The position numbers and the translations under genes were made by a program. From the NCBI GenBank assembly GCA_021234155.1, contig JAJEKV010000049.1:8962036-9026035 (forward strand): a stretch of 64,000 bases of DNA, read 5' to 3'. The notes beneath the pieces were generated by a model, which was not told where the DNA came from, did not search any database, and was given only the letters and a program-made list of their open reading frames with translations. Every line of letters starts with the position of its first letter. Position 1 is the first letter of the stretch. This stretch comes from Isoetes taiwanensis. Taxonomy: Eukaryota; Streptophyta; Lycopodiopsida; Isoetales; Isoetaceae. Shown here in pieces: positions 6,944 to 63,335 of this stretch.

Positions 6944-8240
6944 CAGGTTTCTAGCAAGGGGTTCTGGCACTCGGCTATGGCTATCAGACCTTGTGATTTA
7001 AGGAGCTTTGTGAGCTACGGAGCTATGCCTAAGCCCCAGCAACAACCGTGGCCTATGTGCAATTGCTTAGGCACAAACCACAAGCAAATTAAGAAAGCTT
7101 TCTAGCTATGTTTCAATTCTGGCTTCAATTTCCTTTAAGAGAAATGCCAAGTTCTGTAGTCAGAATTCCAAATCTACACTTAATGGGAAGGATTTATATA
7201 AGGTCTACATGATCTTTGGTATGATGCAGCACATTCGAATTTATGGAGAATGATTCACATAAGCTCCATGCTATCATCTGCATGTTGCAACACAGACATA
7301 CTGTAAGGCGCTTTTGCTTTTACATGGGGGTGTTGGCAGTGGATTGGAGCATATATATGATGAAGCAGAGGGCTTCGAGGCTTCTTGAACCTGGGCTAAC
7401 TCGAATTGAGCTAGAAACAGTTATAAAAAAATGCTCTTCTTCTATTCTATGACAAGGTTTGGAAGAAAAACTGAAAGAGCTTGAGGTTGATATGGATGAT
7501 TTGGAAAGAAACTTTTTGTCGCCTTTTGATCCGTTGTCCACACTCTATCCCGCGCAAAGATTCTACATTTCTCAGCTTTCATTTCCTATCTAAATTTGTT
7601 TCCATGAACTGTTTGGGAGAATCTGAACTATATAGAGTTTTCTTTCCTTCTAAAAGTAAAGTGATTTTAAGCGCATAAATGAATTTTTGGAAGAACATGG
7701 AATACAACGTGAGAAACTAATGGGATGAACTTCTGCCAACCTTAATAGGATGTAGTTAGAAAAGCAATTGGTATTGATTTTATAGGAGAAAACAAAGGGT
7801 TATTCCATGAGGCCAATGCTCTGCAAGAAAGTTTAGATTCTGTGGAAGATGATATTGAACAGAAGCTTGACTTTCAAAGTATACTTGAGATCCTAGCTAG
7901 ACAATTATTGGGAGAAGAACTTAAAATACTTTCCCGGCATGTTGGAGGAAGTTGGAAGTTGGAAAATGCACAACCAAGTGCAAGTGATAATGCAAGTGTT
8001 GAATTGAAAAATATACAAGACAGATGCACAGTCAAAGTAGAATTCGGATCCTTTTTTGAAGAACCAGAGATGCAAGAATATAGTGGGTTATGTCAGGTCT
8101 AAAAAGACAATCCAAGAAAGGAAAAAAGGGAGGAACCATTCTATGAGATTTTTCATCTCTCAACGAAATGAGGTTACGAACAGTAAACCGAAGGCTAGCC
8201 AGGATGGAGCCAATAAGAAAACTTAACAACAGATCTAGAT
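6944..8240 (+). pseudogene. Unrecognised gene X, copy A, decayed
   Basis: Three copies in the window share this sequence, so it is a real former gene or element. Short coding-like runs in shifting frames are ALGYGYQS-type (6975 on), DLYKVYMIFGM (7192-7225), SRLLEPGLTRIELETVIKKC (7366-7435), EEKLKELEVDMDDLERNFLS (7463-7522) and EDDIEQKLDFQSILEILARQ (7845-7904). The last two look helical and charged. Frame changes and stops are frequent. I do not recognise the family. Copy B keeps the first block open for 112 codons. Confidence 0.55.
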
Positions 8241-9618
8241 CTCTTCAATAGCTTAAGGTGAGCAGCTTTTCCTGTAAAATTCTATAAAATTCTGGACATT
8301 ACTAATTTAATAAAGAATATTATTCTTTAACATCCTATCTTTGATTCATTGTATTTTGCAGGCTGCAGGGTGTGCCTGAAGATATCGAACATAGAGAATA
8401 GGTAGTTTTTTTTTATCTTGGATAGCAATTTCTGAGAATTATTGCTTCATGTGTATGTTGATTGGTCGGTTGCTCACAGGTTGCTTACAGTGGAACTGGA
8501 GCTCAGGATTTGCTCGAGGCAATTGACTTTCTAATTATCCAGATTTAGCATCGCATTAGCTTTTACATGAAGGCCAGAGATTCTTTGAATGGAATTTTGT
8601 AACCAACAAAAAGTACATTCCTCTTTAAAACCATCATGCAATATACAGACGTATTATGCCAGTACCTATAGACTAAGAAGGCATCAACATGAATTTTCAT
8701 GATTCTGGGAAGAACTTTGAGCAGCTACACCGGGTTCCAACGCTTAATTCTCATTGATTTGTAATTTTAACTATGGATATTTGGCTTACGCACATTGATG
8801 TATTATTATCGCCGACCTTGAATTCCAAGCATCTACATCAACATTTGTAGTAATTTGATCATTTTATAGAGTCACCTAAACTTGATGTTGCTAGACACTT
8901 TTCAAGCTATAATGTTAGATACTTAGGTACATCCAATATTAGGTACTCATATCACTACTATTTTAGGTACATTTAGATTTATAGGCGTGACTAGAAGCCT
9001 TTGTGTCTTAACATGGCCCTAAGTTAAATAAATGCTTAATCCATCAAAAAATAAAATAAAATGTCCAACATTGGTACGTCATTGGTAAATTTTATAAAGA
9101 AGGGAACAACAATGACTTGCAAGGCTTTGTGTCTTAACAAGCCCTAAACATAGTGCTTAATCCACCAAAAAATAAAATTAGATATCCAACATTGGTAAAT
9201 TTTATAGAGAAGGGACCAACAGTCTATCAGCTATTTAATGAGGCCCTTAAACCTTTAGCAAATATATTCCTTAAATTCATGTACAACTTAATAAATTAAG
9301 CAGATTACATGAGCTTTTAAGCAACAATTCTAACCAAATTCTAGGTCAGTAATTTCTTACTATTCTACTTAAATTGCAGCTTTAAACTCGTGATTGACTC
9401 TTGATTGGATGTATGGAATTATAAATGTTGATACATGTCCTTTAACATGACTCTGATTAGGTCTATGAAATTATGAATGTGGGTCTTATGATATGGATGT
9501 AGGTCTTGTGGGTTTCACTATCATGATAATAGAAACTAGGACTTGTTCCACAAAAGAGAATAAGAACTAGAAGGAAGCAATAGTAATTGATGTTGCAATT
9601 GAGGTTCTAAATTAGACT
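8241..9618. other. Gene-free spacer of segment A
   Basis: No coding signal is visible. The part 8550-9400 is homologous to 38600-40460 (inverted), and 9400-9618 to 32010-32300 (inverted). Inside is a locally repeated pair of ~90-bp words (9060-9130 and 9180-9240, around CCAACATTGG and GGTAAATTTTATA). Confidence 0.7.
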
Positions 9619-9745
9619 ATAGGTGAAGGGACTGGGTGCAAATATCGTTACCCTGGTTTTGGTGATTCCATCGTGGTGAATACTTTCCCGCGGAATCACA
9701 GACCCTCCGGCAACGGGATCCGTTCTGGAGGGCCCGTTGTCCGTA

Positions 9746-9762
9746 CCTGACAATGTCAGGTG
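9746..9762. repeat. Hairpin ACCTGACAATGTCAGGT in MULE left end
   Basis: A perfect 8-bp stem with a one-base centre lies in the left subterminal region. The right end carries the related word GCCTGTCAGGTACGG near 11452. Confidence 0.6.
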
Positions 9763-10172
9763 TACCTTCTGATGGATCCCAGCCATCCGTCTGTAGGGTC
9801 CATCCTGGCCGTCCGTTTTATACCTTCCGGCAGAATCACATTTGTCAAATACCGCCGGACAGAATCACAGCTCTGTTATTCCATGCGACGGAATCACCAT
9901 CCAGAATAATCCAGAATATTCCAGTAAAAATTCAAATTTTTTACGTCCTATTCTTTGTTCTTGTGGAAGGTGTTTCACCTAGTGCCGGCTATGGCGGCTT
10001 GCTCCGGCGATGGCGCCTCTTCCAATACAATCCCGCGAAATTTTTGGCATCGAATGTTCTTGAAATAAGGCCTCCAAACTTTAGAAAAAGGGCATGGTTT
10101 CAGCAAATCCGGCATGGGTTCAGCAGGATTTATGCACGTTCAACAAATCCGCAAAAGGGCATGGGTTCGTGA
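9753..10172 (+). other. Long ORF inside MULE, probably fortuitous
   Basis: A 139-codon frame spans the left subterminal repeats and the start of the cargo. Its first half translates simple subterminal repeats, and the second half overlaps the repeated GGGCATGG(T/G)TTC words. No family was recognised. It could be translated, but the composition argues against a conserved protein. Confidence 0.2.
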
Positions 10173-11601: not shown

Positions 11602-12298
11602 AGTGGGTAGTAAGCTTTAATTAATCAGCATGTGGCATTAAATAATCCAAAGAGTACGAAAATGATGTATGAAGCAAGGACAATGATAATATTCAAATGT
11701 CAACCTCGTTGGGCTTGAAAGATTCCTTTGGGAATTTTATATGGATGACGTGTCAAAGCGTCAGACCACAGCTTTCAGAAGTCCTTCCATTTCTGACAAT
11801 TCAAAGTGAATTTTACAATAACTGCCACGCATAATTGCATGGTATGGCCCATCATTGACTTTGTCTTTATTTTTTATTGGTCAGGCAGCACAGCATGGGA
11901 ACGTAGCCAAAAGTCAGGACCGTGCAGGACAATTGTAATTTTTAAATGCGGTTTTAGGTCTAATAGATCTGGATATTTGTTTGAAGTGGATCCCAATGCA
12001 AGTATGATATTGTTATTCTATGTTGTTTGAAGTGATGTTGATGCTAATGCAAGTATGATAGCCTATTGGTTTCCATGGTTTTTTTTTTTTTGATAAATTT
12101 GTCGTGTTAAAGGATTTACCACAGAGCAAAACGGCACTATCAAAAACTCGGCACCATGCAAAATTAACCATTTAAGGTGTTGGGCCAACAACTTCTTTCG
12201 GCTGGAGTCATTTGTAGGATTCGGTGCGAAAGACACCACTATAACTTAAACAAGAATTTGGCTAATTGGTTTGAAAGTTTTGAAAGCGTCTTCCAACA
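11602..12298 (+). promoter_or_regulatory. Upstream region of the receptor kinase
   Basis: About 700 bp between the MULE and the kinase start are conserved, with indels, in inverted copy B (31235-31960). The shared part runs across the start codon into the first ~45 coding bases, supporting this as the gene's own 5' region. CTATAACTTAAAC near 12239 is the only weak TATA-like word close to the start. No specific regulatory element is claimed. Confidence 0.5.
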
Positions 12299-15071
12299 AT
12301 GTTACGCCTGTGGGCTTTGGCATTAATCTGGTGTCGTATCCTACCCACAACGGAACCTGCCAGTACCCAGGAGATCAATGCCCTCCTCGACTTTGGATTC
12401 ACAATCTGGACCAATAAATCTAGCGATCCGTGTGCTTGGAGAGGTATTACTTGCAACAATAATACCAACATTACCAAGATCTATCTGGATACCGCACGTC
12501 TAAGTGGTACCTTTCCATCCTCAATTGGCAATCTCTCCTTTCTTGAGGATATCCAGCTAGGCAACAACTTCTTGACAGGTGAAATACCTTCTTCAATCTC
12601 CCATCTTAAATCCTTGCAACGTCTGGGGTTGGGAACCAATAATCTAACAGGCAACATCCCAACAGAGATTGGAAGCCTGATCAACTTGAGAACTCTTTAT
12701 CTTGACAATAACAATCTCTCGGGCCCAATTCCTCCATCTCTGGGGAATTTGATCCATCTGGAAGAGCTGGTTTTGTCTACTAACTTTCTGACAGGGACCA
12801 TTCCACAAGAATTTGGAAGGCTAAACAATCTCACCTTCCTTTTGCTAAATGCTAACAAATTGAGTGGGGAACTACCTTCCTCTTTCTCCAATCTCACCAA
12901 CATAAAAACGCTTACTCTCTCAAACAACGCACTTTCAGGCAATATATCAGTTCTAGAAAGCATGTCAGCAGTGCTTGAGAAACTTTGGCTCCAAAGAAAC
13001 AACTTTTCTGGTGCAATTTTCAACACCTCTTTTCCCAATCTGGAAGAGCTTGATTTGGGCTTCAATAACTTCAGCGGAAGTCTTCCAGCAGGTCTGGAAG
13101 CCCCAAGTTTATCTCGATTTTTTGCTGGCCACAATAGACTGACAGGGTCCATTCCATCAAGCGTTTCTAGTAGTCTCACACAGATTTCCAATATAGATGT
13201 TTCTCACAACTCGCTAACAGGGTCATCAAAGATGTATGTGTCACCGAAGCAGCAGGATCTCGCCTTCAACTATTTTGATGACTATGAGCAGGCACTGAAG
13301 TGTGATACCCATGGTGCAGCTTCCAACTTAAGTCTTGGGGTGTGCTACCCATCAATTACAGGCTCCAGAACAGGCTATGGGATCAACGCAGGTGGAGATG
13401 CCACTACTTCTGGAACCTCCACATTTCAAGCTGATATCAAGACTCAAGACGATGTCTTCACAGGTTTGTATAAAGTTGCCGACAATTGGTTCTTAGAAAT
13501 TTCTGGCTGGGATGGAGGAACTGTATCACTTACATCTGCGCAAGATATCTACAAGAGTATGAGATGGTCCTCCACATACCTTGCGTATCATGGTACAGAG
13601 CTTAGAAATGGTAGGTACGAAATTACTCTCTATTTTGCTGAATTGGTAGAAAAAGTCTATGTAAATTATCGCCTTTTCGATGTGCTCATTCAAGGAAAGA
13701 TTGTGGCCAAGGATTTGGATGTTGTTAGAAAGGTTGGACAGAATACTGGTTATCATTTCAGTGCTGAAGAGGAGGTCATAAATGGAACTCTATCCATTGA
13801 ATTCATAGTAAGCCGTGAGAATTACTGGGGTCCTAAAACAACAGGACCCATGATCTCAGCTATTTATGTATCTCCAATGTTTCAAGTTAAGAAATCAAAA
13901 ACAAAATATCTAATCATTATTATTCTAGGAGCCGCAGCGTCTATTTTGGTCTTGCTAGGATTGACAGTGGTTTTGATCAGAAGGCGCAGAAAAGCTAACA
14001 GAAATCTTATCTCAGAGAATGAAACCGGTTATTCTACCGCCATCATCTCAAAGATTGGACCAACCGTTTATACATACAAGCAGTTGCTTCAAGCTACAGA
14101 GGGATTCAATGAGAAACTAATGCTTGGAAAGGGAGGATTTGGTGCTGTGTATAAAGGGACTCTTGCAGATGGAAGTGTTGTTGCAGTGAAGCAATTGACA
14201 AAAAAGACGAAAAAGAGTGAAGAGACATTCAAGAAAGAAATTGCAATTCTGAGCATGATACAGCACCGCAATTTGGTGGGAATCAAGGGATATTGTTTGA
14301 ATGCAGGCATATCTTTACTTGTGTGTGACTTTATAGAAAATGGTAGCTTAGAAACTTTCTTGTTCAAGGGGCCAGTGTTGAATTGGCAAGCCAGGCGCAA
14401 AATAGCAATAGGAGCTGCCTGTGGGCTGCAATATTTACACGAAGGATCGAGGTATCAAGTGATCCACTGTGACATAAAACCAGAAAATATTTTGCTAGAT
14501 AAGGAAATGAATGCTTGCATTGGAGATTTCGGCCTTGCAAAACTCTACAAGGAAAGGGTGGCACAGGTTATTGTCACCAAATTGGCTGGAACAATTGGCT
14601 ACATTGCACCAGGTAAGATCCAATTCTTTGTTCAATACAAGTTGAAGTAAGAAGTTAAACACAAATATAATATGACGTTAAAACTACTAACTAACTATAT
14701 TGACTAATTATGGTGTAAACATCATTTCAGAGTATTCAGCCTCTTATGAAATATCAGAGAAGATAGATGTGTACAGCTTTGGTGTGGTGTTGCTGGAGCT
14801 GGTGAGTGGCAAAAGAGCCATTAGTGATAATTTCAGCTATGCTGTGAGCCATGCACAGGAGATGGCTTATGTGCAGCCCAATGATCTATTGAATTTGGTA
14901 GATGAAAAGCTAGGTGGGGAGTTTGACAAACAAGAGGCATTGGACATGAGCACCATAGCCGTGCTATGCACTCAGACATCTCCAGATGCCAGACCAAGAA
15001 TGAGAGATGTCTGGCTCATGCTCAACAACACCATTCCAGTCCCTCCACTCCTAATAAAGCCTACGCCATAA
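12299..15071 (+). CDS. LRR-malectin receptor-like protein kinase (subfamily VIII type)
   Basis: Two exons, 12299-14612 and 14731-15071, join through a GT-AG intron of 118 bp at GCACCAG/GTAAG...TTTCAG/AGTATT. The product has 884 residues. In order it shows a hydrophobic start (MLRLWALALIWC), an LRR N-cap with the pair DPCAWRGITC, about nine leucine-rich repeats (residues ~60-315), a malectin-like domain (GYGINAGGD, ~360-520), one membrane helix (YLIIIILGAAASILVLLG, ~538-560) and a kinase. Kinase residues are intact: GKGGFGAVYKG loop, VAVKQL lysine, HCDIKPENILL catalytic loop, DFGLAKL, and APE rebuilt by the splice. It is probably an active plasma-membrane receptor; the ligand is unknown. HCD replaces the common HRD. 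The best match is the LRR-VIII/malectin class. Confidence 0.93.
14613..14730 (+). other. Intron of the receptor kinase
   Basis: The donor AG/GTAAGATC and acceptor TCATTTCAG/AG restore the kinase APE motif (A-P-E-Y-S). Without splicing, translation would stop at 14650, before the kinase C-lobe. Confidence 0.9.
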
Positions 15072-18000: not shown

Positions 18001-18413
18001 CTCCGTGAGATGGAGAGAGCATAATAATTATGTCTCTCTAGTATATTATGATAAGCTTCCAATCATATTGCTATGACCTAACCATCATCCAATTAAATTG
18101 GGATTATGTCAACTCCAAAATCACGCCAACCTGCTGTTGTCTTCTAGGGGGTTTTTGTTTTTTTTTATCTTTTTTTTTGGACTTGATAAATAACATAAGG
18201 TTGCGATTCACGTGTGACGTTTCATATGTGAATTGAAATATGCAAAAATGAAGAGCAAGTTGCTAAGATAGATGAGACCAAAATTGAACAGCATTTAGAT
18301 GAAAATATTAGGTTTGATAATAACAGATTGCATTATTTGCGAGGCAATTGAAGACTCGAAATTATCGATACATGGCACAAATATCATATATATTCCAATA
18401 AAACATTAAGAGA
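15072..18413. other. Gene-poor stretch between the kinase and the ParB/methyltransferase pseudogene
   Basis: Apart from the MITE at 16726-16931, no gene is supported. The open frame at 17478-17714 has no recognisable domain and no splice context. The region holds A/T-rich sequence, the ambiguous words AAGGT(A/C)GCCAA near 17223 and 17270, and the probable 3' flanks of both neighbours. Confidence 0.6.
16726..16931. mobile_element. Tourist/Harbinger-like MITE, 206 bp
   Basis: The termini are GGCTACGTTCACATG (left) and the inverse of GGCTACGTTCCCATG (right). Both are flanked by TTA (16723-16725 and 16932-16934). A 3-bp TTA duplication fits PIF/Harbinger-type MITEs. No coding capacity. Confidence 0.75.
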
Positions 18414-19038
18414 TCAATCCATGTTTTTCCACGTATTTAACAAGGTGTGGTTCCATGTCAGCGTTCTATCCAGTTCTGGGTATGAATCTAACACACCCAC
18501 CGTCATCCCCATAGCCAAATTATTCATAATAGACACAAACTTCACCAGAAAATCATCTGTCGCAAAGTTTTTTGGATCGTAAGATGGTGGATTCAGGGTC
18601 TGTGCTTGATTGTAGAAGCATTTGAGAGCATCATCATCCACTATGATTATATCATCCTTATTCTCGATACCAAGTTCGTCCATCATGTTACTCAAGTGTT
18701 TGATGAAGATAGGCTTGCCTGTTGGATCCTTGGGATTAGTGAACTTCACACATTTGTTCTGATCCCAAAAGGTCAACCAATGTCTACGCATTCCCCCCAG
18801 TGCCTCCAAAGTATCCTTGATGTTCCTTAGTTCCATGGATGACCAAATACCAACTCGAAATAACCTGAATGCCTCATCTAGCATCTCCTTCAAGTGCGGC
18901 CGCGGATAGATCCACTTGGTGTTTGATTCTACTGGTGTCTGATGAAACTGATCTCTAGCCACTTTATTTTTCGAAAAAGTCTTGCAAAGGACTCCGTTTA
19001 GGTCGAACACCACAATTTTCTTAGAAACGCAATGCAAG
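18414..19038 (-). pseudogene. FCP1/CTD-phosphatase-like HAD domain (last exon of the fusion)
   Basis: This 207-codon stretch is open throughout. It shows HAD motif I as VVFDLNGVLC, IYPRPHLKEMLDEAF (FCP1-type), a motif II region FRVGIWSSMELRNI and motif IV DDIIIVDDDALKC. In active phosphatases motif I is DxDG(T/V). Here the second Asp is Asn (DLNG), a change common in plant FCP1-like proteins but expected to weaken catalysis. The acceptor TTTCAG/CTTGCATTG joins in phase 2 to the upstream exon. It could have started as a separate gene captured by exon fusion. Confidence 0.8.
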
Positions 19039-19249
19039 CTGAAACATCAAACATGTATCTGGTCAGCAAGATATGATCACACAAACAATACAAACGCGCC
19101 AAGCATGATTTAAGTTAGTCTTAACCAAATCGCGCTCGACGTGATTTAATGTGACAACGAAATATAATCAAAGCACGCTTGGCGCGATTTGATTCAAGGG
19201 TAATATAAATTAAATCACGCGTGGCGCGATTTCGTATGCAAGGCCATAC
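19039..19249 (-). repeat. Intron with CACGC..GGCGCG palindrome-like words
   Basis: This 211-bp intron carries at least four motifs on the plus strand: GCGCCAAGCATGATT, GCGCTCGACGTGATT, GCACGCTTGGCGCGATT and CACGCGTGGCGCGATT. They resemble the larger array in the neighbouring intron. Confidence 0.8.
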
Positions 19250-21201
19250 CTATCATCTTCAGTTTCGTTGTCGTCGTCGGCGTCATTCTCCCCTTCGCCA
19301 CCCTTAATCTCCATGCTCTTCTGAGTGTTAGAATTGTTATTTTCTATTAGTTCCTCTACGTCCTTCACAACTGATATTATTTTAGTATTGATTTGGCAAA
19401 CCTGTGAATCACTATAGTCGCCTGGGTTGCCAATGGTCCCTTCACTTTCGGTTGCCCTATTAATTAGATCCTTGTTAACCTGTGAATCTACTCTATTGTT
19501 GCTTGCATCACCCGCAAGGGAGGCAAAGATATTCCCTAAGTTCGCCTTCATCACATTACTTTGAGCAGCCAGTTTAGCAGCCACTTCGTCATTGCTTTCC
19601 TTATCGGGCTACGGATTACTAGTTCCCTCACCAGAACCATCGACCACTTTTGAATTGGACAAGTCTACGAGGCTTTTGATTGCTGAAGATTTCAGGTTGC
19701 CATAAGGGCCTTTAGGAGATTTGGCAAGCACATGCATGAGGAATGGTTCAAGAAAGTCTTTGGCCTGCTCATCACTCACAAAGCAGTGACATCTTCTAAC
19801 ACCCATAAGAGCCTCTCGGGCAATATAACCTCCAACATGAAGCTCCAAGCAGGTTGTGGGCCCTTCTCCTTAGTTTGTAGCTCGTACTTGATTTCACCAC
19901 TTAGGAGGGGGTCCCGATCCTCATCCTCTTCTGACTCATCCTGTTCCTGATTCTGATCCTGATCCGTATGATAGAATATAGTTCTTAAGTCTGGATCATC
20001 TAGAAGAAAACATTCCCATGCACTGCTATTGTCACCCTTGGCCTTAGCAATATCATATTCCTCGTCTGACATCATGGCTATCATAATAAAGATCACATGT
20101 GCCATCTTCCGTTCTGTTCACAGCTCATTATCCATAACATCATATATTAGGCATCCCTCCCTAATAACTTTGAGGCACTCCAGATCATGAGCAGCGGATA
20201 GTGCATGCAGATGTGACTCACCAGAAGGACAAACGATGACAATAGTGAAGGACCTCTCGTTGTCAATCCTATACAAACGGGTAAAGAAGTCATTGTAGTC
20301 CTTCTCGTTCATGCCCATATCTCCTCTCCCACCCCTGCTGTCCAACACAAAGAGTGATATATTTTTAAGGCAAGAAGTTGATTCTGGCAAGAGACCTTTG
20401 TACCCAATGGAGTCTGAATACTGGACAGTGTCTTCTTCTCCAGTAATCTTCTTCACAAGGGCCACTTTTCTTCTCAACTCGGCCAGTACCTTAGGGCGTA
20501 GAGTCTCCTTATGTTTTGCATTTTTAGCCTTCCAATTCTTTAGGAAATTCTTTGACCAGAATACAAACTTCTTGATATCATCATTGCTGACCTTGTATTT
20601 GTCCAGCAATCTAATTTCAGATAATGCCACATCCCCCGATAGCCTTTGTAACTCAGCTCCTACAGTTGACTTCATTGTACGTACATCCTTCACATGGCTG
20701 CAACACTCAATGAAGGACATCCTATCCTTAGTGAAAGCACTCTTTTTGTATAAGACTTTCTTCTTTAAGCATTGGTCTAAAACTCAAATGGTCTCAGCGT
20801 CGTCTAGCCCCTGAGTCTTTCTCATCTCTGTTACATTCAAGTCAAAGATGCTTACATCAACAGGAGGCATCCTACCCATAGTATCTGACAGCTTCCCTTG
20901 TGCATAAACGTCCCAAAATTCATTCCACTTTTGCCATACTGCCTCCTTACAAAAGACAATCTTATACGAGTCTGTTGGGCCTGACCTGCTAGATAAGCTT
21001 TCAGAAGGATCTGCAATGTCATCACCACCTTTTTTCTTTGATTTTTTTGCAGTCTTCTTCTTCTCCTGTATAATTGTCTGCGACAGAGTCCGCTCCAGCA
21101 GCTTGAATGCCTCAGACTTTGACCCGCCCTGTCTGGTGGGTAATGGGCAGCCATATTCCACCCATTGTTGACGGGCGTGGCGCAGTTGCTCCACGTATGG
21201 A

Positions 21202-21651
21202 CTGCAATAGTACAGACATTGAATCAGTATCATAGAATAGAAACACGCCGGGCGCGATTTGAATAGAATTGATCAACAGAAAAATCACGCCTGGCGTGAA
21301 ATGAATTAAGCTACTAATGCAATTCATGCCAGGCGTGCTTTCAAATCAATTGAATTCACGCCAGGCGTGCTTTCAAATCAAAACAATTCACGCTTGTTTT
21401 GATTAAAAGCACGCCAGGCGTGAATTGGTTTGATTTGAAAGCACGCCTGGCGTGAATTGATTTGATTTGAAAGCACGCCTGGCGTGAATTGTTTTGATTT
21501 GAAAGCACGTCTGGCGTGAATTGTTTTGATTTGAAAGCACGCCTGGCGTGAATTCAATTGATTTGAAAGCACGCCTGGCGTGAATTCAATTGATTTGAAA
21601 GCACGCCTGGCGTGAATCTTAAAATGCTAACATCCTAACACAGTTAATTAC
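21202..21651 (-). repeat. Intron filled by a 32-bp palindromic tandem array
   Basis: The 13-bp dyad CACGCC(T/A)GGCGTG starts at 21286, 21325, 21357, 21410, 21442, 21474, 21506, 21538, 21570 and 21602, with a half unit at 21389. From 21410 the period is exactly 32 bp. Flanks read AATTGATTTGAAAG in one orientation to the right of ~21400 and the reverse complement to the left, so the array is itself inverted about its centre. It sits wholly inside a GT-AG intron that joins two in-frame exons. Confidence 0.95.
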
Positions 21652-22795
21652 CTTTTGTATAGAAATGTCTTCCCCATTTCATTCAAAGTTGCACTAATCT
21701 CAGCCAAATCTGCAGGTGAAGTATTGGCATCCACCAAGAGACGACATCTCCTATACGCATAGTGATTGTAGAACACGCTTTGGCCTGTTTGTTCTGCCTG
21801 CCTGATGAGGGCCTTCTGTGCCTCAATAAAATGCTGCCCGTCGATGATGACGAATTTAATGTTATCATTTAACATTAACTCCTCGAAGTTCGTCCACACA
21901 GCAGGCTTGTTCAAGATCATATCCCAAGGTAACACATCCGCTGGCATAGGCATTTAACCTGGATTACTAATCATGCTCTGAACAATATCCATGGCATGTG
22001 CTGGATCATATCTTCTGCTAACATAAATGGAGCTTGGTGAACGGATGAGGGACTTCACATGGATCTGAAAAGTTTCCTTAAGACCCAATGGATCATGGTC
22101 AGAGTACTTATTCAGCTTGTTCATGGCCTCTAGCTGCGCCACCCTGTCCTGTTCATTCTCAAAAACAGAAGCCTCCATGCCTTCGACAACTGCAGGAAGA
22201 ACATCCTTCCCTAGATTTAGGACCCTCCTCGAAGCTTTCAAGTCAGCTAATTTCCTAGCTTGCTACAAATAGTGACTTGGTGTCGGTTTATTAAACATTC
22301 CTCTACGCACAGCTGCAACCCCTTGGCAAATAGATATTGGCGTAACTGCTACATTGGTGGGCCAGCCATACTTAAAACATGTCTCACCGTTCACATCTGT
22401 CCTCATGAACGTATCCTTGTATGCAGTAGCTCTACAGTGAGTAAGTCTAAGCAGATCTTTCTTCTGCTTATGTGTAATCTCCAAGAGCAATTTGCAGTTG
22501 GTGTCGTCCTCTTCCTCACAAGAGATTAGGATCCCTTGTTTGGTCATCTTGTATGCTTCCGTTTTCCTCGAGAAGAGAGTTAAGTCGAGCTTGCCATTTG
22601 TCTTGGCAAGGTCAACGTACCACTCGGCACCCTCGTCCATTTCCTCTTCAGGGCACGCAGGGTCAGTGGTTGCTATAAGAATCGGCCCTTCATCATCTAA
22701 TGTGATATCATATGGTACTGCATCTGGGTCGTCTACCCTTGATTTCTTACCAGGAATAGACCCCAAATTATTAGGGGTTTTCTTCCTCTTGGGCA

Positions 22796-23286
22796 CTGCA
22801 AAAGAAGATGAACATTTTTTTATAGTATTTTCCAGAACAAGAGATCACGCTTGGCGTGAATTTAAGCCTAAATTAGTATAATTCACGCTTGGCTTGTTCG
22901 TACTGTGTACCATGCTATGCGTGAATTTGAAGCTAAATTAGTATGCATCCAGATTTTAAGCTATGTACCCTTTATGAATCCATATTTCACACTATTTAAC
23001 CTCATTGAACACTGCTATCTCTAACTGTCAAACCTCCAGCTCTAAATAGGTGTGTACCCCTCTGTTAAAAAATACTAAGAACTATATTCTTTAAACACAG
23101 AGCAAAATTATGTTCTTAAAAAACAGACAATCAGAGCATTAACTGAAGGTAATAATTTAAATTCATGCAAAGCATAATAACTCAAATTCAAGCAAAGCAT
23201 ATTAACTGAAGGCAAGGAAATAACTCAAATTCATGCAATGCATAATACTCTCCACACACTGTGTATTCAGAAGGCAAATTAAATAC
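22796..23286 (-). repeat. First visible intron, with the same CACGCTTGGCGTG words
   Basis: Words CACGCTTGGCGTGAATT (about 22846), TTCACGCTTGGCTTG and GCTATGCGTGAATT lie in the 491-bp intron near its 3' end. The donor CAAG/GTATTT and acceptor TTTTGCAG/TGCCC give a phase-1 join that restores frame. Confidence 0.75.
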
Positions 23287-23447
23287 CTTGAATAGGGGTC
23301 TGATCAACGTCCTCTGAAACTTGAGAAGAGCCAGGTTTTGAGTTTCCTCTGCCACCGCTTCCTCGGCCCCGTCCGCCTCGACCACCTCTGGTTTTAGAAC
23401 GCAAGGTCGCTCGGATAAGCGCTCGAGCTGCTCGAAGAAATAGCTTT

Positions 23448-23873
23448 TTCTACCTGTACGAGAAATAGCTTTTTCTAACTGCACGAGAGAAATTTGAATT
23501 TCAAGAAAACACAATATGCAGTTTCGAAATATTCTTGACACATAAAAATAATACTGACGAAGATTCACTATAAAAAAAAAAAAGAACCCGTCCGCCGACT
23601 TCTTTCATTGAGTTTTTAAAAACCAATCTACCGTGTTCTTTCATTGATTACATTTATCCCGCTTAAATATAGTTAGCCTAAGCTTTCTTCTAACTCGAAT
23701 TTTTCCCGACCGCCTGGGTTTCCATAGCGCCTGTGATTTCGAGAACTCGAATCAGCTTCTCAAGAATGGCTACAGAATTCTGGTACTCATCTCATTCCTA
23801 TAGCTTGAACATTAATTTCCAATAGTAGGTGTCTAAATAGGCAATTGTCTGCAGTGTCGAAGATGAATGTTTC
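23448..23873. other. Undefined 5' region of the ParB/methyltransferase pseudogene
   Basis: A 27-bp tandem duplication of AGAAAAAGCTATTTCTCG(T) occurs just upstream of the first visible exon (23440-23495). An in-frame stop follows it, so neither the start codon nor the first exon can be placed. The rest is A/T-rich with no further gene. Confidence 0.5.
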
Positions 23874-24100
23874 ATGTTAACTACAAATCAGAAAAGGAAA
23901 GTAGGATTATGCAAGATCGACTCCATCGATCCGACTACAAACTGTCATGGAATTCTGCTCGGGGATAAGTATGTCCAGGTTACAGTGATTAACTGCTGCG
24001 CTATGGATGAAGCTTTACCTCGCAGACACCCCTGTGGGGAGGAGAAAGTGTTAAAACATTTGTTGCATGGCCAAGAAACCGCTTAAAAAAGGTATGTAAC
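23874..24100 (+). pseudogene. Fragment resembling the C-terminal domain of plant transposon TNP-type proteins
   Basis: The frame KRKVGLCKIDSIDPTTNCHG..LGDKYVQVTVINCCAMDEALPR fits a module seen in plant En/Spm-related TNP proteins ('V..STDP...GG.PLG..Y.EV.V.....DE.LPRP'). A shift near 24045 moves to FVAWPRNRLKK, the usual ending. The match is from memory of the family pattern. It is a short relic with no transposon ends visible. Confidence 0.4.
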
Positions 24101-24479
24101 ATGTATTACGTTGTAGAAATATAGAAGTAGACAAAATTTGTTGTATTGATTGGCAAAAGTTTACAATTATATATAATCTGGATAAACCAGACATACAAAA
24201 TCCCAGGCTGTTTCAAACACAGTCTACTGTTTCAAGCCCAGTCTACTGAGTAGCTTGGCTATCGATACTCCCATTTCCATTCCAGGGCATAGTGAATTCT
24301 TCTGGTAAAACCCCAGCAAAAATAGAACCTTTGTTCTCTGAAGATGAATTTTTAATCATTCTGAATTTAGTGTCAAAATAGTTTGCATAGTGTCAAAGAA
24401 TAATATATAGTGCCCCAGTGCATTGTATTTGCTAGAAATCACAAATTTTGTGCAGTACATATTTGCTAGGCCTGAAAGC

Positions 24480-34706: not shown

Positions 34707-35965
34707 GTCCTTTAGTTGGTTAGAAAGAGCATAAGTTGTTGCTTGGAAATAAAATTTGGGTTGGCCAAATATCATAGATACTAGTAGAATGCCCTACAAC
34801 TTACATCTAATAAGACACATTTTACTGGATCGTAAATATTGGTTAATAGGACATCTGCTTTCACTGAAGCAAGATGCCTGGTCATCTTTGGCAATGCAGT
34901 GCGCTGAAAAGTAACGTGTCAACTTCTGTTGAATTATAGAACTGAACTTTATCAATATTGAGAATGTCATAGATTCATTGCGCTGGACATGCTGCAAGAG
35001 CTAGCAAGAGTTCATTGAACTGGACATGCTGTGGAAAACATTCGCGACCTGCAAGAAGCAAGTGGCATTTCACAAAATAGAAATACCAACATTTCATAAT
35101 ATGTGCCCACCAGTCGTTTGCAATAATGCCATAGCACATCTACTACAACACAGAATCTTAAATTTGTAACACGCTTCAGAATAAGGGATTATTGAGAGAG
35201 GATAATCAACATAATCACAAAGAATTGGATAAGCATCAACGTGATCGCATAGGATGATCTTAAGAACCATCAACATAATCTCATGTTAAAGGACATAGAG
35301 GAAAGAAACAATGCATGTAAATGTGCAATCACAGATTGGAAATGGTAAACCTTTGCCTAGGGCATGGGAAAAACTGTGTATGACTCTAGGAAGGCTGAGC
35401 ACATCCTTGCAGCATCTGAGCTACCAATGGCAACAGAGGACGCTTGACAAATAATAGAAATCACATATGATAAGAAGATATCTGCACATTGTCTTCTTGC
35501 TGCAACATTCAACTCTTGTGGTTTGCTGTGTCCTGCAATCTGCGATCACCTGCATTCCAGTAACCATGGGGTAAAACCTACATCAGAGATGCTCTTGAAA
35601 CACAGAAAAGTGTAATGCAGACTTCAGAATGTGTGAGAGTGTACTTTGTTCAGCAATACTCAGCAGCTAATTGTTAGTTTCTACAGACCATAAAAATTCC
35701 ACGTTATCCAAGTTCATACCAACTGCTTTCCAAACTTCTATCATATACCTTCATACTGTCTGGATTTTCTCAAGATCACCCCCATCTTACTATTCAGTTG
35801 TGCAAACCAATCGCCAACCCAAAACTTGAAAATGCAGCCTGCGTTCAATATACAATGCTTTCATCATTCCCTGCAGAATGTACGCACTCGCATCACCATC
35901 AAAATCACGAGTCACCATCAAAATTTCAAACATGCCAGAAATCAAGCCATTCCATTACGGCATAA
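34707..35965. other. No gene seen, downstream of the truncated mS29 gene
   Basis: I searched this strand for the missing C-terminal exons of mS29 and did not recognise them. Small open frames here lack domains. Confidence 0.4.
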
Positions 35966-37208
35966 CCTGGATATAATATTTAAACAGCATAGGAAAGAGC
36001 GAATTTTGTAGATGGCATGCCTGTAGAGCTGATTCCGCTTGCCCTGGAGTGTCCCAAAAGCCAGTCAATTCGTTAAAAGAAAAAATATTCTCATGCGTCC
36101 ACATTTTCCCCCTAGACTCATAAAACACAAGCCATCCTTGAGATCTTGCCCACGATACAATCATTGCAAGAGCAAGACTTTTCCCACTCCCAACAGGGCC
36201 ATCCAGAAGATACTGCCTGCATGGTTGAATTACTGCAAGAAAAATCAGAACGAACAGAAGAATGTCATAATAACATTCAATACATGTATCACATGCGACT
36301 AGAAGACGAAGACTTGCCCAGCAAGAACATACCAGCATACCTTCAGCAAGTTTTTCTTTTGTAATTTCCCTTGTTGGAGGGCTATCTACACCGTCCACTG
36401 GAGCTTCTAATTTAGAATCTTCTTTCCATAAAGCATTGAGTGGAAAGACATTTGACATGTTGTAAGCAAGCTTGCCTGTCAATGTAAACTGCATTCGGTT
36501 GCATAAAGATAAGACTTGGCTCCTGACTAATATGCTGCTATTTCCTGTGAGATCAAACTCCTTGGATGCCCCAGATGGCAAACCTTCCGCCAAGTACTGT
36601 GCAATGTCCTCTTTCCTAGTATCAGAACCAGATGCATTGATTAGCATCAAATCCCATTGTCAAATAGAACCATATTCATTAGTATCCTCGCAATCTAACT
36701 CCTTTCCAAATTGAACGTAGAAGTTATTATATATCTTCTGAAGCTAGCTACATGGTATGGAGAAACAGCTACCGATATTGTCCACATTCCATATCCTGTT
36801 CAATTAAAATCGTAAACAGTCTCACCTTAGAGAAATATACTTGTTGATATCAGCTTTTTTCAACTTAGAGATATCCATAGTAGAAGCAAAAAGAGAGGGG
36901 TCTTTGACAATTTCAACGAGACCGGGACCGTAATTTATAACGAGACCTTTGGCATCAAAAGCCACAGCCCTGCCAGGACCCTGGCTCCGATGCTCCATAC
37001 CGAACCCCATTCCAGGACCAACATCTTCACTCTTGGAAGCACCCTTGCCCTTTGCTCCGGCCTTTGCAGGAGCTCCCTTCTTCTCCTTCATTAGAAATGA
37101 AGAGCCATGAATTCGTCTCACAGACGACCCATTTGGGCCATGAATCCTTGAGCTGCATTGTGCAAATAAGTTGGATCGGAGTTTGATTAGAACATGCCTG
37201 CCCTTCAT
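35966..37208 (-). CDS. Mitochondrial small ribosomal subunit protein mS29 (DAP3), 5' half only
   Basis: Exon 1 (37208-36826) encodes a likely mitochondrial presequence (MKGRHVLIKLRSNLFAQC, basic, no acids) and ends ...KKADINKYISL. Splicing from AG/GTGAGA to ACTAG/GAAAG at 36615 joins in frame to RKEDIAQYLAEGLPSGASKEFD, typical of this family. Exon 2 ends near 36329-36341. Exon 3 from about 36212 has the P-loop YLLDGPVGSGKSLALAMIVSW, then GWLVFY and ELTGFWDTPGQAES. mS29 is a GTP-binding mitoribosomal protein. The C-terminal half is not found downstream, so the copy looks truncated or its last exons lie far away. Exon 2/3 boundaries are tentative. Confidence 0.8.
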
Positions 37209-54712: not shown

Positions 54713-56163
54713 TGCACTTTAGTTATACTAGCACTTTAGTTACACTGTCACATTACCAATCAAAATCTCAAACAAAATTTAGAACATATGTTAATTAGAG
54801 TACGAGGAATTGAACCCCAATAGCATCAAGCTATTCCCAAGACTCAGACCGTGGATTGATCTAATAAAACAGGATTAAACCTTGTTTTAAACAGACCCAT
54901 TTTGAGCAAACAAATATATATAGCATAAACTCCATTTTAGTCGATGAAAATATAAAGAGAATGCAAACTAGAACAAACTCTCTCTATGCAACGGTCGAAT
55001 CTCCAGTTCTTGCTTTGTGTATCTGCTCAACTACGGTGACCACTTCTTAACCAGCAAAAGCACAAAGAGGCATATCATTCGTCCTGAAACGTTGATTAAA
55101 CCTCCAGCTAGCAAAGCAAAGTGAAATTTTGGATGCATGGGGAAATCTTAAAACAAACAATGGAAAGGTTAGATCTACAGCGAGTTAGATCTTCAAGCCA
55201 AATAGAAAAGCTAGATCGGCAAGATGATGTCCATATCGCAAAAACTACTACTAGAAGGCTTCCAGAATCTGCATTTGAATAGGGAACTATATAACTACTG
55301 CCCTGAACAAAGGCTAAACGCAAGCCAAAGCAAATATTCAAGCATAACCATGCAGCAACAAGAAAGCTGCGATAATATGACTCAAATCCGAAAGCAAAGC
55401 TAAAGCTTAAGAAACTAGGTCAGCACAGGGAAATCATAAGCCATGGCCGGTATTGCTGTTCAGATGGCAGCGGACATGAGAGGCGAGAATAAGCTGAACA
55501 GGGGTTATATTAAATATAAAGAAATATAAATATAACAATATAATATTGGCAAAAAATCGGCCAACGACAAGATTGCCGCATAGGATTTGGCTTTCTTCCA
55601 CGTGGACGGCAGCAAATTTTACATTCATGGAGGGCACGCGCTATGCGTGTGCCATCATGTGCCGGCTAAAAATAAAATTATCCTAAAGGTAACGCCGTGG
55701 CAAACATATTACCGTTGGAGATTCTATAATCCGTTAGGATCGTGCCACGCCAGCACATACCTTTAGCTTTACCTGTGCCATGTTTGGCAATCCGTCGGCC
55801 GATGTTTATCTTTAGTGCCATGTTTGGCCCTTTTTGGCCTGCCCGGAAGAATGGAGTATATGTACCGGGTTTTCCAATTCCTCGCCGTAGAAGCATGGGG
55901 GTGGGAGTTCTATTCTTTAAATGACGGATTCATAGCCGCTGACACCTACAGACAACAATAACGCCTACTATAGTAAGACTTTCTTGTACTCACTTAGTTT
56001 TCTGGGCTTTAGCTTTACTTTCTGAGTTATATTATAGCAGCTTTCTTGTTTCTTATTTCGATGGGGGCCATGGAGCTCATAGACGTGCAAATGCTTATGG
56101 TTAATGTTAATGCCAGAGCTTGAAGGCAAAAGCGGACACTTCCTGTGAGCGAATCAGCAAAAA
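54713..56163. other. Gene-free region upstream of FTR1
   Basis: No coding gene is supported. A local pair GTGCCATGTTTGGC occurs at 55776 and 55818. A weak TATA-like TTATATTATAGC lies at about 56027, 137 bp before the FTR1 start. GC content rises towards the gene. Confidence 0.5.
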
Positions 56164-57129
56164 ATGGTGGAGCTTTTCAGCGTTCCGGCGTTCTTTATTC
56201 TGTTCAGAGAGACGCTGGAGGCGTCGATAATTCTGTCTGTGATGCTGGCGCTGATGAACAAGATGGTGGAGGATGTGGGGCGCCGGAGGAGGATGAAGAA
56301 GCAGGTGTGGATGGGAGTGGTGGCCGGAGTAGGGACGTGTATGGCTGCAGCGGCGGTTTTCTTATCTCTGTATTACACTGTGGCGAAGGATGCATGGGAC
56401 AGAACAGAGTCCCTGTGGGAGGGGATTCTAGGCCTGGTGGCAGTCATACTCATCACGCTCATGGCTTTCTCAATGATTCGAGTGGACACGTGGCGGGACA
56501 AGTGGGAACGCAAGCTCACCAAGGTGACGCAAGAAGCAGTCGGAAGGGTCGATGGCACCGCTAAAAGCGACAGCGCGGACGACGTTGCTGCATCCGGCAA
56601 TGAGCTGTCCTTTAAAAGCCGGTATGCTCTGTTTCTGATACCCTTCACCGTGGTATTGCGAGAAGGCGTAGAGGCAATTATTTTTCTAGGAGGAATCGGG
56701 CTGGAGGGATCCGGCACTGCCTATCCGATCCCTGCCGTCGTGGGGGCCGCGTGCGGCATCCTGGTTGGGTATCTGCTGTACAGGGGAGGCAACAAGGCTG
56801 CCTTTAAGGTCTTCATGGGGGCCGCAACCTTGCTGTTGCTGGTGATCGCAGCTGGGTTGTTTGCTGGTAGTGTCCACGAGTTCGAGGAGTACACCCACAA
56901 CGAGCATTTCGTATGGAAGCTTAAGTGCTGTGGCGACGGCAACAACTTCTGGTCGCTCCTTAACGCCATCGTCGGATGGCGTAACGAGGCTACTACCGGC
57001 ACCCTCTCTGCTTACATTCTCTACTGGGTCTTCGTCGTCGTCGCACTCTTCCTGCTCCGCATCAAGTGGCGTCGCCAGGATGCCGCATTGAAGGTGGACG
57101 ACTCCACAAACACCTCTAATCCGGTCTAA
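56164..57129 (+). CDS. FTR1-family high-affinity iron permease
   Basis: An intact, intronless 321-codon frame. It carries two REGLE-type metal motifs, RETLE (residues ~16-20, in FFILFRETLEASIILSVML) and REGVE (~166-170, in PFTVVLREGVEAIIFLGG). There are about seven membrane helices: ~5-31, 48-70, 84-105, 155-180, 190-206, 216-236 and 284-304. FTR1 moves ferric iron across the membrane, in fungi together with a multicopper ferroxidase; no ferroxidase gene is in the window. The start MVELFSVPAFFILF fits the family, whose first helix is at the extreme N-terminus. The gene is much richer in G+C than its surroundings. It is known in fungi, algae and some seed-free plants. Confidence 0.93.
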   Translation: MVELFSVPAFFILFRETLEASIILSVMLALMNKMVEDVGRRRRMKKQVWMGVVAGVGTCMAAAAVFLSLYYTVAKDAWDRTESLWEGILGLVAVILITLMAFSMIRVDTWRDKWERKLTKVTQEAVGRVDGTAKSDSADDVAASGNELSFKSRYALFLIPFTVVLREGVEAIIFLGGIGLEGSGTAYPIPAVVGAACGILVGYLLYRGGNKAAFKVFMGAATLLLLVIAAGLFAGSVHEFEEYTHNEHFVWKLKCCGDGNNFWSLLNAIVGWRNEATTGTLSAYILYWVFVVVALFLLRIKWRRQDAALKVDDSTNTSNPV

Positions 57130-62607: not shown

Positions 62608-62660
62608 CCTATAGATAACACATTTTTACACAAGGCCATGTAGTTATATATTAATAAAAA

Positions 62661-63335
62661 TACAATTTTTTATTAATAGTCCTGATCAAAGTGTGAGTCA
62701 TCGACTTTCTCATAGTCTGCAGGGTTAATCTTACTGCGGTCAATTTGCTCCTCCTGCTCAGCTCCACCTTGGCCGGATGTCTCTCCTTTCTCTCCACCTT
62801 GACCTGATTCGTCCTCCTCATTTTCTCCCCCGACTGCTCCACCATCTTTAATAGTCAAGACTTCGCGCTGGCCAATGGCCTTTGGGGCAAGCAAGGGGTA
62901 TAGGGCGTTCTATGCATTTAATCTTCACGAAGTCATGCTCATATGTCGCACTGATTCTTCCTACATGAAGTGATACCCTAGATAGAGCTCCAGCAGATAC
63001 AATTTTTTTTTAATAGTCCTGATCAAAGTGTGAGTCATCGACTTTCTCATAGTCTCCAGGGTTAATCTTACTGCGGTCAATTTGCTCCTCCTGCTCAGCT
63101 CCACCTTGGCCGGATGTCTCTCCTTTCTCTCCACCTTGACCTGATTCGTCCTCCTCATTTTCTCCCCCGACTGCTCCACCATCTTTAATAGTCAAGACTT
63201 CGCGCTGGCCAATGGCCTTTGGGGCAAGCAAGGGGTATAGGGCGTTCTATGCATTTAATCTTCACGAAGTCATGCTCATATGTCGCACTGATTCTTCCTA
63301 CATGAAGTGATGCCCTAGATAGAGCTCCAGCAGAG
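62661..63335. repeat. Tandem duplication, 337-bp unit, of a gene 3' end
   Basis: 62661-62997 and 62998-63335 are almost identical. Differences include CTGCAGG/CTCCAGG and GATACCC/GATGCCC. The unit covers the C-terminal ~110 codons and the stop codon of the minus-strand methyltransferase-fold gene, so the outer copy (62661-62997) is a detached second C-terminus. Confidence 0.95.

Follow-up and report, generated by a model that had tools for sequence, protein, structure and literature searches.

The palindrome CACGCCWGGCGTG is a family-specific sequence in the non-coding DNA of a high-copy DNA transposon of the lycophyte Isoetes taiwanensis, found in the introns of the element's second gene and, in several copies, between its two genes. 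The palindromes are probably landing sites through which the element recognises its own copies. The analysis started from a stretch of 64,000 nt of I. taiwanensis DNA (the window), which contains a truncated copy of this transposon; coordinates given below without further label are window positions.

Distribution of the palindrome in the window

At two mismatches or fewer, CACGCCWGGCGTG was matched 15 times in the window, against 0.33 matches expected from 100 shuffles, none of which reached 15. All 15 matches were inside the three introns of one minus-strand gene, the second gene of the transposon, and the rest of the window had none. An earlier note, made from the window alone, had reported the motif in all three introns of this gene and had noticed it nowhere else in the window; both statements were confirmed. 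The intron junctions of the window copy were GT...AG in 3 of 3 cases. Tandem Repeats Finder described intron 2 as an array of a 32-bp unit in 2.3 and 7.0 copies, the spacers of which switched orientation near 21400; the inverted 32-bp array of the earlier note (around ~21400) was thus recovered. Intron 3 of the window copy held decayed forms of the motif only.

Association of the palindrome with the element in the genome

The genome searched consisted of 1,658,258,908 bases in 1110 contigs. The earlier note had proposed counting the 13-mer across the genome and comparing introns among paralogues. Exact CACGCCWGGCGTG sites numbered 1771, compared with 1 for the reversed control pattern, and the 13-mer is not a common satellite. 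Twenty 10-kb regions around exact sites were sampled, representing 22 of the 24 site clusters among the sites listed. Element DNA was present in 20 of 20 regions: in 19 it was detected by tblastn of the second-gene exons (E 1e-3 or better), and in the twentieth (L018) by a blastn match to the upstream part of the element. A general satellite, or one spreading between introns at large as the earlier note had considered, was rejected on this basis.

Because these regions had been chosen by the motif, a motif-blind sample of 20 copies was taken from the 109 protein matches to exon 2, using matches that reached the exon end with identities spread over 65-93%, and 650 bases were read from the end of exon 2 onward. 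The motif followed exon 2 in all 20 copies at one mismatch or fewer (exact in 19), so the introns of relatives carry it as well; at two mismatches or fewer there were 167 instances, against 0.12 in shuffles. This sample ruled out that the motif was found only through motif-based picking of regions.

In the window copy and nine aligned relatives, introns contained 77 motif instances and the 33,976 bp of exon contained none; intron 2 carried the motif in 10 of 10 copies. None was found in these copies in the 8.4 kb directly upstream of exon 1 or in the 1.4 kb at the 3' end. Farther upstream, between the two genes of the element, sites were present in several copies, and the intron-specificity of the motif therefore looks like a by-product.

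Introner elements are mobile units that consist of the intron itself and insert in many unrelated genes. Introner-type intron gain, another explanation offered in the earlier note, was rejected: the window copy and the nine aligned relatives had introns at the same junctions, and the mobile unit was the 12.4-kb element. Separately, a 17-mer scan of viral contigs gave one match in each of 6 contigs and was not used.

Structure and copy number of the transposon

In blastn comparisons, the DNA similarity of the window copy to other genomic copies broke off at 18079-18080 and at 24322, and other copies extended ~6 kb further upstream to a second element end. The full-length element is ~12.4 kb, as given by the span of the copy on contig C96. 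Its ends are mutually inverted, with the terminal inverted repeat (TIR) AACCATCATYCAATTAAATTGGGWTTATGTC. Each of the three copies for which both ends were recovered was flanked by target duplications, namely ATAA (C96), AAAA (C1018) and AATT (C953); a search of ten copies beyond C96 recovered both ends in 2. The element that contains the second gene is a TIR DNA transposon of high copy number; its copy in the window is a dead, decayed relic that retains the sites.

The 5' part of full copies contained an open reading frame (ORF) on the opposite strand with weak DUF7869 matches (E 4.9e-5 and 0.0011, both short of the curated threshold) and two metagenome relatives in the protein database. This ORF was taken as the putative transposase of the element, divergent from the second gene. 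Among the listed matches, 13 pairs of transposase and second gene lay within 20 kb of each other, against 0.25 expected, and 13 of 13 were divergent.

The exon 2 protein gave 5221 first-look candidates in the genome, of which 108 were scored, with 109 matches; for the transposase there were 12470 first-look candidates, and 96 were scored. The 78-bp 3' end of the C96 copy had 973 first-look genomic candidates, the best 40 of the 973 all being 100% identical, and it also contained a CACGCC half-site.

Two unusual arrangements of element parts were observed. At L022:1664-3130 and 7376-9998, transposase-like ORFs, judged by reading only, shared the strand with the second gene, unlike the divergent pairs. 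At L023/L024 (C68, about 488344-504537), two half-elements faced each other, both interrupted in intron 2, and TTAG adjoined the 5' end of one and the 3' end of the other; these may be one rearranged element.

Second gene of the element

The positions of exons, introns and motif matches are listed in Table 1. The last exon encodes a NIF-type HAD phosphatase, a feature missing from the earlier note.

Table 1. Positions of the transposon copy, its second gene and its motif matches in the window
Feature	Position	Strand	Remarks
5'-truncated transposon copy	18080-24322	-	~6.2 of ~12.4 kb; element 3' end at 18080; blastn similarity stops
Terminal inverted repeat AACCATCATCCAATTAAATTGGGATTATGTC, element 3' end	18080-18110	+	Pairs with the inverted 5' end of other copies
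Lone half-site CACGCC near 3' terminus	18122-18127	+	42-47 bp from the 3' terminus
Exon 4	18414-19038	-	NIF/FCP1-like HAD phosphatase domain, PF03031, E 7e-15
Intron 3	19039-19249	-	211 bp; 2 decayed CACGCCWGGCGTG matches, 19174-19186 and 19216-19228, 2 mismatches each
Exon 3	19250-21201	-	Methyltransferase-like by eye only; stops and frame change in window copy; no family match
Intron 2	21202-21651	-	450 bp; 32-bp array; 11 CACGCCWGGCGTG matches, 8 exact; inverted near 21400
Motif cluster of intron 2	21244-21614	.	CACGCCWGGCGTG match positions
Exon 2	21652-22795	-	DGQH-type region that looks ParB-like by eye; window copy has two in-frame stops; weak DndB match
Intron 1	22796-23286	-	491 bp; 2 CACGCCWGGCGTG matches, 22846-22858 and 22884-22896, 1 and 2 mismatches
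Exon 1	23287-23449	-	From translation and splice sites; 23449 is not a fixed 5' limit

The window copy of the gene was broken by in-frame stops at 22263-22265, 21954-21956, 20784-20786, 20118-20120 and 19609-19611, and its reading frame changed at 19857/19858, a point at which six relatives had 65-74 extra bases. Because relatives encode Q, W or R at the stop positions compared, the stops were read as decay, and recoding was set aside. The substitution spectrum of exon 2 in the window showed no clear excess of C-to-T changes (9 of 21).

At least 13 of the listed genomic matches spanned the whole of exon 2 without a stop. Ratios of nonsynonymous to synonymous substitution (dN/dS) were calculated for the window and nine frames selected for being uninterrupted; within the main family of this sample, dN/dS of exon 2 was 0.46-0.97 at dS 0.03-0.11. 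Between the main family and L081/L082, dS was 0.66-0.76 and dN/dS was 0.18-0.24 (16 comparisons), and the second protein was therefore under constraint.

Conservation of the palindrome core

The 13-bp core occurred with different spacers in all three introns and in the intergenic part. When subfamilies were compared, their motif-bearing introns and intergenic stretches had chiefly the core and a few adjoining A/T in common, and some pairs aligned beyond the core too. Among instances at two mismatches or fewer, the identity of core positions was 91-99%, with lower values in the flanks. The introns downstream of L081/L082 (L045 and L046) retained arrays, the spacers of which scarcely aligned with the others; the L045 array had other spacers and a single orientation.

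The inverted array of intron 2 might instead act in RNA, as a long hairpin that serves as a source of small interfering RNA or as a splicing structure. The predicted fold of intron 2 in the window was -208 kcal/mol (z -18), and the array was inverted in the middle in several copies; L045 also folded better than shuffles (z -8.6), as expected of any set of palindromes. However, the one-orientation array of L045 lacks such a long hairpin, which is thus not general, and in the window the first and third introns have two sites each. Changes within families, counted at two mismatches or fewer, a cut that limits double changes, were one-sided in 101 cases, compensatory in 0 and double without pairing in 2. 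One-sided and never compensatory changes therefore point to a DNA site, and an RNA-level role appears very unlikely.

Sister site class

A symmetric variant of the palindrome, CGCGCCWGGCGCG (G form, CACGCCWGGCGTG being the A form), had 1639 exact genomic sites, compared with 1 for its reversed control. Forms with C or T at the variant position, in any combination of halves, had 51 sites, compared with 18 reversed. The half-sites of the two classes are CACGCC/GGCGTG and CGCGCC/GGCGCG, which differ by A:T to G:C at positions 2 and 12. In 20 fetched intron stretches, 93 symmetric cores were of the A form and 0 of the G form.

Neutral spread of a minisatellite inside the element, amplified with it, would be consistent with the 32-bp tandem units, the inverted blocks and the varying copy number among copies. 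The pairing of a single core with different spacers in three introns and between genes, the persistence of this core at dS ~0.7, where spacers are scarcely alignable, and the abundance of the two symmetric forms over their reversed controls and over the C/T forms all argue against it, and we regard this explanation as highly improbable.

The G form was associated with some related elements. No CACGCC..GCGTG core was found upstream of four transposase relatives (L083-L086, 77% identity), and five exact CGCGCCWGGCGCG sites were located upstream of the related transposases of L083 and L084. The second gene beside L084 (L088; 33-61% identity per matched stretch) had G-form sites, with 1-2 mismatches, in its first two introns, and the A form was absent from it. 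A diverged second gene beside L083 (L087) shared 26-42% amino acid identity per matched stretch. The upstream parts of L083-L086 also contained further short repeated words, GAAGCCGAGAA in four of four and ATTATAGGTTA in two; these and similar words may represent the sites of additional subfamilies.

These data bear on the possibility that the transposase itself binds the palindromes, or that they act as internal transposition enhancers. The motif tracks the transposase as well as the second gene, since two of the four 77%-identity relatives have the other variant and two have neither within 1.8 kb upstream; the CACGCC half-site close to the 3' terminus (Table 1) also fits. Transposases usually bind terminal or subterminal repeats, however, and no full site was seen at the element termini, most sites lying in second-gene introns far from the ends. 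Binding by the transposase is considered unlikely.

Recruitment of a host transcription factor, with the sites serving as intron and promoter enhancers of the element, would agree with their position upstream of the second gene and in its introns; CACG cores are common in sites of plant factors. A host factor site, though, would not usually show such an excess over the reversed control or such a link to the element in every sampled region, and a symmetric, family-specific switch fits a co-evolving element protein better. This explanation was also given a rather low likelihood.

Proposed role of the palindromes

It is reasonably probable that the sites are bound by a DNA-binding protein encoded by the element, likely the product of the second gene, for marking of copies, anti-silencing or control in a manner analogous to VANC of Arabidopsis. 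A dimer of this protein would bind each site as a dyad. Binding within the element would mark its own copies and counter host silencing, or otherwise control expression and transposition. Introns would be used because they are non-coding space within the 12-kb element, and subfamilies would change the protein and both half-sites together. A narrower proposal is a land-plant counterpart of ParB/parS self-recognition, in which the second protein would read the dyads, load and spread so that the entire copy is marked or protected, and subfamilies would split into non-cross-reacting systems through symmetric changes of both half-sites along with the protein; this was considered possible but doubtful.

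Several observations weigh against binding by a second-gene product. The sampled site regions were all from low-numbered contigs. In the window copy and the nine aligned relatives, intron 1 carried the motif in 9 of 10 copies, and intron 3, wholly or partly kept in 6 of 10, carried it in 3 of these 6; no sites were found between the two genes of C73. Array units could be homogenised by copying instead of selection. Neither CGCGCCWGGCGCG nor the A form was present in the 1.8 kb upstream of the L085 and L086 transposases, and neither form occurred in the 3.4 kb read of L087, so that among the two related loci read the G form was linked to the second gene via L088 alone. For the second protein, Pfam gave no match to the ParB family (ParBc); a methyltransferase match was found neither in Pfam (two exon 3 sequences) nor in NCBIfam (one), although a remote homologue is possible; and a word-based search of limited reach through 5.8 billion proteins gave no homologue among the candidates it scored.

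The Pfam family closest to the exon 2 region was DndB (best E 0.0043, below the cut-off, in 2 of 5 members), and there was no credible PDB profile match for the second protein. The ParB and methyltransferase labels assigned to the gene in the earlier note are without backing from profile searches and are unproven. Of the interpretation given there, the idea of a self-tagging element fits the data, as the gene is a transposon gene, the motif lay in the element in all sampled regions and it recurs in paralogue introns; neither result that the earlier note had named as refuting was obtained. Intron gain of the introner type and a satellite at large were not supported.

Comparison with known systems

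VANDALs are Mutator-like elements with target duplications of ~9 bp. Passages of PMC5735166 and PMC10398659 describe VANC motifs in introns and upstream parts of VANDALs, differing between families; the VANC21 motif is the 9-bp YAGTATTAY, arrayed in one orientation. The same passages report that motif binding and demethylation by VANC have been demonstrated, with anti-silencing by VANDAL21 and VANDAL6 in Arabidopsis. The Isoetes element likewise has motif arrays in non-coding DNA that differ between related families (two related loci read). Unlike VANDALs, it has a TIR, a 4-bp duplication, a DUF7869-like putative transposase and a 13-bp palindrome; its second protein has no family match to VANC, and its palindromes are candidate binding sites.

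The element Sola1-1_Ec32 of Ectocarpus, as described in parts of PMC12477816, is 21.5 kb long and has a gene for a ParB-like and DNA methyltransferase protein of 1104 aa opposite to the transposase. The same parts propose that such accessory proteins bind and modify their own transposon, and cite Iyer 2011 and Petroll 2025 for green and red algae. In the Isoetes transposon, too, a large second gene runs opposite to the transposase. It differs in its land-plant host, its length of ~12.4 kb, an extra NIF-type phosphatase exon, and ParB/methyltransferase domains without support from hidden Markov models. A 4-bp A/T-rich duplication and a short TIR are shared with the Sola superfamily, the criterion being taken from Sola2 elements, for which a portion of PMC3627910 gives 4-bp A/T target duplications. 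No target motif for algal ParB-methyltransferase transposons was found in print, within the available parts of PMC12477816 and a limited literature search.

In bacterial ParB/parS, palindromic sites cluster close to the gene of the site-specific protein, and the Isoetes palindromes are likewise clustered close to a gene whose product is presumed to be site-specific. The Isoetes second protein has no ParB family match, and the palindromes occur at scattered places in a transposon. In maize, the element proteins Spm TnpA and MuDR MURA are believed to act on repeats of their own element and to relieve silencing; their sites are terminal or subterminal, unlike the internal sites in Isoetes. PMC10398659 mentions MURA.

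The kind of system is thus known in outline; what is new is the land-plant case, the candidate sites, the exon for a phosphatase and the division into two site classes. A candidate target of an accessory protein of the putative ParB-like/methyltransferase type is made explicit here in many natural copies, and the sister site class, one symmetric change apart, is a built-in control. The element offers a ready test of co-evolution between element proteins and their sites. If the proposed role is true, the VANC strategy would have a second and independent example, one that lies outside the VANDALs and comes from a lycophyte.

Other features of the window

Rfam and tRNA scans of the window gave no matches. 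An uninterrupted ORF at 56149-57129 (+) encoded an FTR1-type iron permease (PF03239, E 3.7e-57), a family better known from fungi and algae. A reading frame of an LRR-malectin receptor kinase was located at 12284-15071 (+), its kinase end continuing in a second ORF past 14650. The P-loop ORF at 35955-36659 (-) had DAP3 (E 2e-6) and STAND NTPase matches. At 62660-63334, a 337-bp unit was tandemly duplicated with a 99% match.

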